Source: Candidatus Limnocylindrales bacterium (GTDB lineage Bacteria; Moduliflexota; Moduliflexia; Moduliflexales; JAUQPW01). Taken from it: a DNA stretch of 64,000 nt. The stretch's first letter is position 1. Each line of letters opens with the position of its first letter. This document shows, in pieces, positions 17,660-51,873 of the stretch. A program made the translations under genes and the position numbers. The stretch covers positions 310,001 to 374,000 of the forward strand of contig DATMBG010000051.1 of assembly GCA_035559535.1 (NCBI GenBank). The letters run 5' to 3'. Below the pieces are notes generated by a model that was given only the letters and a program-made list of their open reading frames with translations, ran no database searches and was not told the DNA's origin.

Positions 17660-18322
17660 TCATTTCTGCTGAATAACCTCTACCCCCTTGGGAATTTGAA
17701 AATGAAATTTATCCTCAGGTAAGTTGACATTGGTCTGAATATCGGTAAAGTAAACGTCGGTTATATTTCCATACAAATCATACACTGAAGTGTGAACAAC
17801 CAAATAGGTAGAGGGGTCTACAGAGAGAATGAGTTTTGAAAAATCGGGTTGAGCCGTTTTAGGAACCAATTCAAGGTGGTAGGTATTCGGGGGATGCCCT
17901 TCTGTATCCGGAACCAGTTGGATATGAAAATCTTCTTTTAGCTTTCCTCCTCCGGCCAAAAAATTAATAGGGATCCGTGAGCTATAAACTGATTGTATCT
18001 TTTCGACAATAACCTGTTCATCACCGGGAAGATAGAGCCAAAGGGTTTCTCCATCACTGACTAAAAGTTGCTCATTGGGGGGTAGATATTCCCAACGCAT
18101 TTTTCCAGGCTTTTTGAAATAGACGACTCCTTCAGACTTTTGTTTTTGTTTACCTCCCAGGGACTTCAAGGCAGCTACCTGACTAAAATGAGCCTGAAGG
18201 TCTTGGGTATTGTTATATCGGGTTTGAAGTTGATGGATAATCTCATCAACCGAAACGTTCTGGGCTTGCAGAGCAGGATTAATAAAAAACCAGAAACCTA
18301 TCAGCAGAAACAAAAATAACAT
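17660..18322 (-). CDS. lolA: LolA-like outer-membrane lipoprotein carrier
   Basis: A 220-residue periplasmic protein with signal peptide (about 1-20, NPALQAQ) and a LolA fold: VDEIIHQLQTRYNNTQDLQAHFSQ, then YFKKPGKMRWEYLPPNEQLLVSDGETLWLYLPGDEQV, the strand signature of the lipoprotein-carrying half-barrel. It would ferry lipoproteins from LolCDE to the outer membrane; no lolB or lolCDE is in view. The gene overlaps or abuts the response regulator that follows. The promoter candidate at 18384-18412 gives a leader of about 55 nt. Confidence 0.85.
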   Translation of the reverse strand: MLFLFLLIGFWFFINPALQAQNVSVDEIIHQLQTRYNNTQDLQAHFSQVAALKSLGGKQKQKSEGVVYFKKPGKMRWEYLPPNEQLLVSDGETLWLYLPGDEQVIVEKIQSVYSSRIPINFLAGGGKLKEDFHIQLVPDTEGHPPNTYHLELVPKTAQPDFSKLILSVDPSTYLVVHTSVYDLYGNITDVYFTDIQTNVNLPEDKFHFQIPKGVEVIQQK

Positions 18323-49540: not shown

Positions 49541-49613
49541 TGGTCCCAACGGGAATCGAACCCGTGTTTTCGGCGTGAGAGGCCGATGTCCTAGGCCGCT
49601 AGACGATGGGACC
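49541..49613 (-). tRNA. tRNA-Glu (CUC anticodon)
   Basis: 73 nt on the minus strand. The acceptor arms GGTCCCA (49613-49607) and TGGGACC (49548-49542) pair exactly, discriminator A at 49541. The anticodon loop CTCTCAC gives CUC, and the T-arm holds GGGTTCGATTCCC. CCA is not encoded (ATTTTT follows). The transcript is driven by the promoter candidate at 49644-49673. The sequence is a clear tRNA-Glu type by its D- and T-arms. Confidence 0.95.
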
Positions 49614-49736: not shown

Positions 49737-49881
49737 GAACAAACGTTTATAGAAGGTATCTCTTTGGTAAAAGGAAATAATGTTAATCAAGTACCAATAC
49801 CCCGTAGGGTGAAGTTGAGGAAGCTGGGAATCCGGGGTATGGAGGGGTATGAGGTCCAAAAGATAAACAGGGAGTAAGAAG

Positions 49882-50487
49882 ATGGAATTTCATGAATTTC
49901 TACTTTCAAGACGAAAAAAGTTGGGCCTTAGTAAAAAGGATTTAGCAATTAGGGCCGGAATTTCAGATGCCTACATTAAACACATTGAGGATGGAATGCG
50001 GATTCCCAAAGACATTCTAATCCTTTATAGCCTGGCCGATGCTCTCCAGGTGGATCGGGAGTGGTTTCGGGATTATGCGTACTTTCATCGGGACCCTAAA
50101 TCGGCGACGAAGTACATGGATGAAGCAGCCATTCTGGAAGGTGAACAGAAGGAAGGGCGCCATTATAATGCAGACTCTGACCCTACCACCAGACTTCCCC
50201 CTATAGATCGAGAAATTATCGAAGCCATTCAAAAGCTGAATGAGGGACAAAAAAACCGATTACTGGAGTATTTACGAACCCATCGTTCATTTGACGGCCT
50301 CATTTTTGAGGGAATGCGTTTTGATCGGCGAGATTTGCTTTATAAAATTGTTCAGAGGCTCATACGGATCGATAAGAATATTCAGACCAAAATGCTCCAC
50401 TATATTGCCGCTATGACCTATATCGAAACCCACGAAAATCAAAGTCCTTTCAAAGGATTGTTTGGAGAGGTCCTGGAAATGGAATAA
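49882..50487 (+). CDS. XRE-family transcription regulator
   Basis: A 201-residue DNA-binding protein. Residues 4-58 form a helix-turn-helix of the XRE/Cro type (EFLLSRRKKLGLSKKDLAIRAGISDAYIKHIEDGMRIPK, given here as a helix-turn-helix signature: LSKKDLAIRAGISDAYI). The rest has an acidic, partly disordered linker (KYMDEAAILEGEQKEG) and a helical C-terminal region of about 100 residues (REIIEAIQKLNEGQKNRLLEYL), reminiscent of SHSP-like or MerR-type tail regulators but not identified. No membrane or ligand domain is seen. It starts a small unit with a membrane protein and tiny lipoprotein, and three palindromes TAAC-N4-GTTA occur in the following 800 nt, which may be its targets. Confidence 0.8.
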   Translation: MEFHEFLLSRRKKLGLSKKDLAIRAGISDAYIKHIEDGMRIPKDILILYSLADALQVDREWFRDYAYFHRDPKSATKYMDEAAILEGEQKEGRHYNADSDPTTRLPPIDREIIEAIQKLNEGQKNRLLEYLRTHRSFDGLIFEGMRFDRRDLLYKIVQRLIRIDKNIQTKMLHYIAAMTYIETHENQSPFKGLFGEVLEME

Positions 50488-50529: not shown

Positions 50530-50543
50530 TTAACGTGTGTTAA
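50530..50543. promoter_or_regulatory. TTAAC-GTGT-GTTAA palindrome (site A)
   Basis: Perfect palindrome with core TAAC-N4-GTTA, 42 nt after the regulator stop, next to a weak promoter-like TTGACC (50518-50523) and 34 nt before the perfect ribosome site at 50564. Same core as sites B and C. Confidence 0.6.
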
Positions 50544-50576
50544 TTCCTTTTTCATTCCTAAAAGAAAGGAGGTGAT

Positions 50577-50591
50577 ATGGGAATTCTTTGA
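50577..50591 (+). CDS. Four-codon leader reading frame (MGIL)
   Basis: AAAGGAGGTGAT, the best ribosome site in the region, stands 1-2 nt before ATG GGA ATT CTT TGA (50577-50591). The frame ends after four codons, 49 nt before the membrane-protein ATG, which has no comparable ribosome site. It may be a translation-control leader, a landing site, or a chance stop in the leader. It is reported because of the strong ribosome site. Confidence 0.35.
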   Translation: MGIL

Positions 50592-50640
50592 GTTCCAGGA
50601 AGAGCTTCTTTAAATTCTAGAATTCAAAAGAGCAAAGATT

Positions 50641-51066
50641 ATGAGTCCGATCATGAGTATCTATACAGCGCTTATTAGGTATCAATCGGTTTGTATCTTT
50701 CAGTTAGTTCCTATTTGCTACTTCACATGGATCTTTAGTCGGCTGATCTACTACAAGTTGAAATACCATAAAAAGATCTCTTTAAAGGATGCCCTTACCT
50801 TCTTTACCCTGGTTGCGCTGGCTCTGGATTATGGACACTACCTCTATTTCTTTGTAACCAAGACAGGCCAATTTCTGTCCTTTCCTGGATTTCTCATTAA
50901 GTATAGCTTAGGAACCATTCTGTGGATCTGGATGTTTGTTTATCACTATGAGGTCTGTGTCCGAAAGAATTTACTGCGAAAGTACTCTTCGCGAGATAGG
51001 AAAAAAGCAATCTTTGCTTATGTTTTATGCATGATTCTTATCCTCTTTCTCATCGGCGTATTGTAG
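50641..51066 (+). CDS. Four-helix membrane protein of unknown function
   Basis: A 141-residue integral membrane protein with four hydrophobic segments (about 12-37, 49-72, 80-101 and 122-140), positively charged loops (YKLKYHKK, RKNLLRKYSSRDRKK) and few other charges. The repeat of His, Tyr and Trp (DYGHYLYFF, WIWMFVYHYEV) in helices is notable. No family recognised. It follows the XRE gene by 153 nt with palindrome site A between them. No clear Shine-Dalgarno just before the ATG; an in-frame ATG at 50653 is an alternative. A strong terminator lies at 51173-51202. Confidence 0.65.
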   Translation: MSPIMSIYTALIRYQSVCIFQLVPICYFTWIFSRLIYYKLKYHKKISLKDALTFFTLVALALDYGHYLYFFVTKTGQFLSFPGFLIKYSLGTILWIWMFVYHYEVCVRKNLLRKYSSRDRKKAIFAYVLCMILILFLIGVL

Positions 51067-51172
51067 TCTGAAAATCCAATGTCGGCAGGCAGTAGAGATA
51101 AGAATCTTACTTCATACGGAGCTTATTTCTAACTCCGAGGATCGAATCGATTAGCTTGAGTTTTTTACCCCA

Positions 51173-51202
51173 ACCCTTAGTTTTACTAAGGGTCCTTTTT
51201 TT
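51173..51202 (+). terminator. Rho-independent terminator
   Basis: ACCCTTAG (51173-51180), TTTTA loop, CTAAGGGT (51186-51193), then CC and TTTTTTT (51196-51202). A clear intrinsic terminator ending the membrane-protein transcript. Confidence 0.8.
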
Positions 51203-51211
51203 ACCCTTGTA

Positions 51212-51276
51212 ATTAACTTTTGTTAGTTAATTGGCGGGGTTTGAAAGAAAAAAGTCTTCCTAACATATGTTAGGAA
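51212..51276. promoter_or_regulatory. Palindromes B and C before the tiny lipoprotein
   Basis: Site B: TAAC-TTTT-GTTA (51214-51225) within ATTAACT/AGTTAAT. Site C: 51257-51276 is a perfect 20-nt palindrome with half-site TTCCTAACAT and core TAAC-ATAT-GTTA, 30 nt before the lipoprotein start codon. A TTGAAA (51241-51246) is a possible -35. Both share the core of site A. Confidence 0.65.
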
Positions 51277-51305: not shown

Positions 51306-51383
51306 ATGAGAACTACATACTTACTCTTGCTGATATGTCTCATCTTGATTTTATCCGGTTGCACCCCTTATGTCCCTTGGTAA
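51306..51383 (+). CDS. 25-residue lipoprotein
   Basis: ATG at 51306, stop at 51381-51383. The product MRTTYLLLLICLILILSGC followed by TPYVPW is a complete lipoprotein signal: basic N-terminus, long hydrophobic core and lipobox LSGC, leaving a seven-residue lipopeptide after cleavage (CTPYVPW). AAGGAGG stands about 10 nt before the ATG, and site C (perfect 20-nt palindrome) precedes it. This resembles entericidin-like or lysis-type mini-lipoproteins in size only. It is very likely to be a real regulated gene from these three features together. Confidence 0.7.
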   Translation: MRTTYLLLLICLILILSGCTPYVPW

Positions 51384-51873
51384 AGAGCTTTCTAATAAAA
51401 AGAATACCCATTCTAGAATGGAAGATCGAAGGAAAATTTTTAAGATTCTACCCTTCGATCTCCCTTCTGGATACACGGTAACATAAGCAAGGAGCCTTTC
51501 AAATCCTTACCTCAAGTATTGAACCAACTCTACAATTTTACAAGCCGCAACGATAGCAACCATGAGATAAAAAATCGTTTTGTCCATGCGAATAAGGTTT
51601 CACAGGTTCTTCAACATAACCGATCGTTAGAAGAACCCTTAAATGTTCTATAGACCTGGTAAAAAGAGCCTACCCACAACTTCCAATTCATTAGACCCAA
51701 AGAGGAAAGAAGGGGTTTAATCTCAGGCAGGAAAATTTTAAAAGTCAGAAAACCTGCAGAGGGCGGAGAACCAATCAACCAATCTCTGTATGAGAGGGTT
51801 TGTAGCGTTGGGAATTGTGAAAGGTTACTTAAAAACAGCACCTTCCTCACAATTCTCAACGGATAAGGATACC
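51384..51873. other. Gene-free stretch with one stem-loop
   Basis: AGATCGAAGG (51423-51432) pairs exactly with CCTTCGATCT (51452-51461), a 10-bp stem with a 19-nt loop, just after the lipoprotein gene, a possible terminator without T-tract. The remaining 400 nt to the cytochrome stop show nothing clear. Confidence 0.45.

Follow-up and report, generated by a model that had tools for sequence, protein, structure and literature searches.

Gene content of the locus

An XRE-family regulator gene, a gene for a protein with four predicted transmembrane helices (4-TM protein) and a mini-lipoprotein gene follow each other on the plus strand of the 64-kb window, i.e., the whole stretch of DNA analyzed. 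Coordinates below refer to the window; its own genome is designated G000, G001 is a genome of the same genus, and G002 and G003 belong to another family of the same order.

49882–50487, plus strand: XRE-family regulator (XRE), 201 aa, with an N-terminal HTH_3 domain and a C-terminal domain of about 125 aa
50518–50546, plus strand: TTGACC-17-TAATTC, promoter predicted by eye for the 4-TM gene; the operator occupies the spacer and −10 box
50530–50543: candidate operator 1, TTAACGTGTGTTAA, identical in G001; site 1 (TAACGTGTGTTA, exact TAAC-N4-GTTA match) at 50531–50542
50641–51066, plus strand: 4-TM protein, 141 aa, lineage-specific family (ORF and orthologues)
51173–51202, plus strand: terminator-like intrinsic hairpin and T run 3' of the 4-TM gene, conserved in G001
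51213–51226: candidate operator 2, TTAACTTTTGTTAG, with the counterpart TTAACTTTTGTTAA in G001; site 2 (TAACTTTTGTTA, exact match) at 51214–51225
51257–51276: candidate operator 3, a perfect 20-nt palindrome, TTCCTAACATATGTTAGGAA, identical in G001; site 3 (TAACATATGTTA, exact match) at 51261–51272
51306–51383, plus strand: mini-lipoprotein MRTTYLLLLICLILILSGCTPYVPW, 25 aa, with a strong Shine–Dalgarno sequence (TAAGGAGG) and the predicted mature lipopeptide CTPYVPW

All three ORFs are as an earlier note on this DNA had described them. The N-terminus of XRE matches HTH_3 (PF01381; E = 8.6e-9, 35.7 bits versus a cut-off of 23), and its C-terminal domain has no Pfam or NCBIfam family match. The 4-TM protein gave no noteworthy match in Pfam, NCBIfam, PADLOC, PHROG, or PDB. 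For the unit as a whole, the generic HTH was the only known family returned by Pfam, NCBIfam, PADLOC, and PHROGs, and the sole Rfam match above cut-off was a tRNA (49541–49613). The structure models of XRE (pLDDT 46) and of the 4-TM protein (pLDDT 64) were too poor to use and gave no meaningful PDB fold match. A phage origin was rejected because XRE has no phage match, and a plasmid origin because the 4-TM protein has no plasmid match.

Two smaller features were noted in the surroundings. The sequence AAAGGAGGTGAT, a perfect anti-Shine–Dalgarno sequence, lies about 65 nt 5' of the 4-TM start codon (window 50564–50640) and is followed by about 48 nt that are identical in G001; the region may encode a leader peptide (GTG ATA ..., 13–14 codons) or act as an mRNA-stabilizing element. 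In both G000 and G001, AAAGGAGGTGA outnumbers its reversed control about twofold. On the minus strand, a 26-aa single-helix ORF (MDKTIFYLMVAIVAACKIVELVQYLR, 51507–51587) is present in G001 with mostly conservative changes; it has no clear Shine–Dalgarno sequence and is preceded by the inverted repeat GGTTCTTC...GAAGAACC.

Conservation of the unit

The order, an uncultured bacterial lineage, is represented by four genomes (G000 to G003) in the set of 385 genomes searched. Protein searches identified XRE orthologues in G001 (93% identity) and in G002 and G003 (47–49%). Each is followed by a 4-TM protein (95% identity in G001, 40% in G002, and 43% in G003 by protein search; 95, 41, and 40% when the orthologous loci were compared), and the order XRE, 4-TM protein, mini-lipoprotein is common to all three. 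Among the 385 genomes, convincing relatives were retrieved only from G000 to G003, both with a profile of the 4-TM family and with one of the C-terminal domain of XRE; the latter profile also returned two marginal matches (E about 5e-4). Both genus members (G000, G001) encode one XRE paralogue (59% identity). G002 and G003 each encode a second 4-TM homologue, which has signalling or metabolic genes as neighbours and is not accompanied by this XRE. In G002 and G003, a gene for a large AAA/STAND-like ATPase lies just 3' of the unit (L035 6031–8370; L036 6574–8841); in the window, none was found at that position.

Candidate operator sites

The three TAAC-N4-GTTA palindromes reported earlier are the sole exact matches in the window, and the third does lie inside a perfect 20-nt palindrome. 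The claim that the sites precede both the membrane protein and the lipoprotein needs a clarification: Site 1 stands before the 4-TM gene, but sites 2 and 3 are both located between the 4-TM gene and the mini-lipoprotein and precede only the latter, with operator 3 about 30 nt 5' of its start codon. Three matches compare with 0.73 expected in the window, and at least three occurred in 3 of 100 shuffles. Under a uniform model, about 0.005 triples as close together as this one (742 nt, or about 740 nt) would be expected. When intergenic regions were shuffled (order 1), the two of the window yielded 0.0004 and 0.007 sites on average, versus one and two observed, and the probability of a site in a given intergenic region ranged from 0.0004 to 0.013. 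Because the motif was chosen from the window, such probabilities are post hoc there, but not in the related genomes. A genome-wide scan, proposed in the earlier note, revealed no enrichment of the 12-mer in G000 (82 copies versus 114 of the reversed pattern). The motif alone is thus unremarkable, whereas the clustering of three sites is unusual.

The sites are retained together with the genes at the orthologous loci of G001, G002, and G003. Before the 4-TM gene, TTAACGTGTGTTAA is present in G000 and G001, TTAACGTATGTTAA in G003, and TTAACGTATGTTAG in G002, and the position of operator 1 in G003 and G002 is occupied by TTAACGTATGTTA(A/G). The mini-lipoprotein is preceded by TTAACTTTTGTTA(G/A) plus CTAACATATGTTAG in the genus (G000, G001) and by TTAACTTACGTTAA, 22–26 nt 5' of the start codon, in G003 and G002. 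Before the XRE gene, TTAACACTGGTTAA was found in G002 and TTAACATTTGTTAA together with CTAACAGTAGTTAG in G003; the palindrome thereby precedes all three genes in G002 and in G003. The XRE gene's own promoter contains no exact operator in G000 or G001. The intergenic DNA of the G002 and G003 loci is otherwise unrecognizable, yet genes, order, and sites are kept. Loss of the sites at orthologous loci with retained genes, which the earlier note had named as grounds for refutation, was not observed. Since all of these are kept in G001 to G003, the proposal that XRE, membrane protein, and mini-lipoprotein form one control unit is well supported.

The extended form TTAACN4GTTAA occurs twice in the 3.4-Mb genome of G002, both times at the XRE locus (reversed control: 5), and six times in the 8.4 Mb of G003, three of them at the XRE locus (control: 17). 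The counts in G000 and G001 are 17 and 21 versus 4 and 7 for the control, many of the copies being located inside genes; the excess may come from a larger regulon in this genus or in part from base composition. Elsewhere in the genomes, the intergenic sites common to G000 and G001 are located upstream of unrelated genes. Both G000 and G001 retain TTAACCTTTGTTAA upstream of two genes, one of 641 aa and one of 278 aa whose product has an L7/L12-like domain (L060 2043/L082 1996 and L059 2023/L081 2066). In G003 (C20), two tandem TAACTAACGTTA sites (L040 9445 and 9488) precede a 119-aa ORF, which is a possible extra regulon member.

Predicted promoter of the 4-TM gene

In all four genomes, the operator at the 4-TM gene lies between the −35 and −10 boxes of the predicted promoter, with its 3' half supplying the −10 sequence. 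The predicted promoters read TTGACA-17-TAATAT in G003 and TTGACA-16-TAGTAT in G002, and the geometry in G001 is alike. A consensus promoter scan did not list the promoter in the window, its rules excluding TAATTC. Judged by this geometry, the site is a putative repressor operator placed to block polymerase. No consensus promoter was evident at the sites before the mini-lipoprotein; these sites could therefore act in the 5' untranslated region. The hairpin between the two genes is consistent with separate transcription of the lipoprotein.

The mini-lipoprotein

The same slot is occupied by MRARYLLLLVGLILILSGCTPYVPW in G001, MLYYWMIVVLSVIIMLLTGCTPY in G003, and MRYYWMFIAVAIILTLLSGCTPY in G002, each copy with an upstream Shine–Dalgarno sequence. 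The orthologues end in GCTPYVPW (G001) or GCTPY (G002, G003) and match the lipobox [LVI][ASTVI][GAS]C with LSGC, LTGC, and LSGC, so that the predicted mature lipopeptide comprises 4–7 residues (CTPY or CTPYVPW). Nine codons differ between G000 and G001, five of them synonymously, and within the last 14 codons all changes are synonymous. GCTPY is invariant in the protein while its codons vary, and the signal-peptide part diverges. This substitution pattern argues that the mini-lipoprotein is under protein-level selection. A second mini-lipoprotein ORF, ending in GCTPLY, was found upstream of XRE in G002 and G003. The two ORFs of G002 are the only matches to the pattern GCTP-(0–1 residue)-Y-stop in that genome, and GCTPY-stop was found across the 385 genomes only in G002, G003, and one unrelated frame, which was rejected because it is not a signal-peptide ORF. 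All four genomes encode LspA, and the window also encodes LolA (17660–18322); the genome therefore looks diderm and capable of lipoprotein processing.

Proposed regulation and alternative explanations

The recognition helix SDAYIKHIEDG is invariant across all XRE orthologues and the paralogue, and the G001 paralogue carries TTAACCGGGGTTAA in its own promoter. From the location of the sites, the shared recognition helix, and the paralogue's promoter, we infer that XRE is the protein that binds them. A second element, (A/T)AACGTTTAT, recurs at the promoters of XRE genes and, in G002 and G003, also between the 4-TM gene and the lipoprotein. As (A/T)AACGTTT(A/G)T, it is located at 49741–49750 of the window and at L035 4281 and 5609, L036 4685 and 6139, L037 6123, and L038 5717, and it is not enriched genome-wide.

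The locus most probably represents an autorepressed XRE switch that controls a lineage-specific envelope module (probability about 0.72). An XRE dimer would bind the 14-bp TTAACnnnnGTTAA operators. As the operator fills the −35/−10 spacer and its 3' half serves as the −10 box, binding should block RNA polymerase at the 4-TM gene. Operators before the mini-lipoprotein and, in the sister family, before the XRE gene would add joint repression and autorepression; with no exact operator in the XRE promoter of the window's own genus, autorepression there is unsupported by the sequence. A signal, presumably sensed by the XRE C-terminal domain, would relieve repression, and the derepressed cell would produce the 4-TM protein in the inner membrane and a pre-lipopeptide, which Lgt and LspA would convert into a lipid-anchored peptide of 4–7 residues (CTPY or CTPYVPW). 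The 4-TM protein and the lipopeptide might then act jointly in the envelope. That this is an envelope module, as suggested before, is plausible in view of the four predicted transmembrane helices and the lipobox peptide. More tentatively, the genes for no more than a lipoprotein signal peptide plus C-T-P-(L)-Y(-VPW) might define a new kind of envelope lipopeptide, ribosomally made, lipid-anchored, and 4–7 residues long, which would work together with a dedicated 4-TM protein under an XRE switch and might serve as a signal.

Toxin/immunity-type pairs are commonly under the control of XRE repressors, and small lipoproteins also include the colicin lysis proteins and the entericidins. In a version of the envelope-module reading that we consider unlikely, the mini-lipoprotein would act as a toxin or as a lysis-type lipoprotein against which the 4-TM protein confers immunity, with both repressed by XRE; the second mini-lipoprotein in G002 and G003 would suit such a pair. 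However, toxin modules are usually mobile and patchy in distribution, whereas throughout the order this unit keeps to a single locus. In addition, no Pfam or NCBIfam model was applicable, and the predicted mature tails of 4–7 residues are far shorter than those of the entericidin-like Atu8019 (32 aa; PMC7296081) and HP0135 (28 aa; PMC11768039).

The sites could also belong to a CRP/FNR-type regulator (HcpR/NssR-like) instead of XRE, which would place the genes in a redox or nitric oxide regulon. Campylobacter NssR recognizes TTAACnnnnGTTAA (PMC1274295), and a Crp-type HTH protein is encoded in G000. This assignment is nevertheless improbable, as both G002 sites and half of the G003 sites are located at the XRE locus, including the 5' side of the XRE gene, and the genus paralogue carries the same motif before its own gene. 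By eye, genes near the examined sites of G000, G001, and G003 were not recognized as hcp or globin genes, the targets that NssR would be expected to have.

Read on the minus strand, palindrome 3 has the score and the T tail of a terminator, and it might mainly end transcription of the convergent cytochrome c/PQQ-dehydrogenase genes, site 2 then being an incidental AT-rich sequence. There is little likelihood of this, since the palindrome lies about 600 nt past the cytochrome gene, across the mini-lipoprotein, and since G002 and G003, which lack the convergent genes, keep TTAACN4GTTAA in place without GC stem or tail. Palindrome 3 could be operator and terminator at once. A pheromone role, in which XRE would read the cleaved C-terminal part of the mini-ORF's signal peptide, is suggested by an ORF that is almost entirely signal peptide and by a parallel with inhibitor peptides and PrgX of enterococci (PMC7117660), but it is very improbable because the signal peptide diverges while GCTPY is invariant, so that selection acts on the lipidated end, because the XRE C-terminal domain of about 125 aa matches no family, and because the unit contains no dedicated transporter or receptor gene.

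Comparison with known systems

XRE-controlled loci are common, but both genes controlled by the putative switch are outside described families. If the lipopeptide reading is true, no more than a lipidated tetrapeptide can suffice as a functional product, one overlooked by gene callers. The locus is compact enough for testing in a laboratory host.

The putative switch resembles the 434 repressor/Cro class in its HTH_3 domain, the 14-bp two-fold operator over the −35/−10 region, and the adjoining target genes. It differs in that XRE has a C-terminal domain outside Pfam, is chromosomal and order-wide, and has no phage relative found. The consensus TTAACnnnnGTTAA is identical to that of the CRP/FNR-type regulators NssR/HcpR (PMC1274295); those regulators belong to another protein family, and the sites described here gather at an XRE locus. 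With prgQ-prgX, the locus shares a mini-ORF that is mostly signal peptide and an adjoining gene for a DNA-binding repressor. In enterococci, the last 7–8 residues of a lipoprotein signal peptide serve as the pheromone, whose receptor is the DNA-binding repressor PrgX (PMC7117660), whereas in the unit described here the lipidated end is conserved and not the signal peptide, the host is diderm, and a PrgZ or Opp-like partner is absent.

Entericidins EcnA/EcnB, Atu8019, and HP0135 are likewise very small lipobox proteins of diderms, and G002 and G003 have two such proteins per locus. The mini-lipoprotein had no match to entericidin models in Pfam and none above cut-off in NCBIfam. After processing, HP0135 keeps 28 residues (PMC11768039) and the entericidin-like Atu8019 keeps 32 (PMC7296081), which makes 4–7 mature residues unusual; a limited text search of the literature found no description of shorter mature lipoproteins. 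Compared with these proteins, the mini-lipoproteins of the order are set apart by a predicted mature part of 4–7 instead of 28–32 residues and by their invariant CTP-aromatic end.
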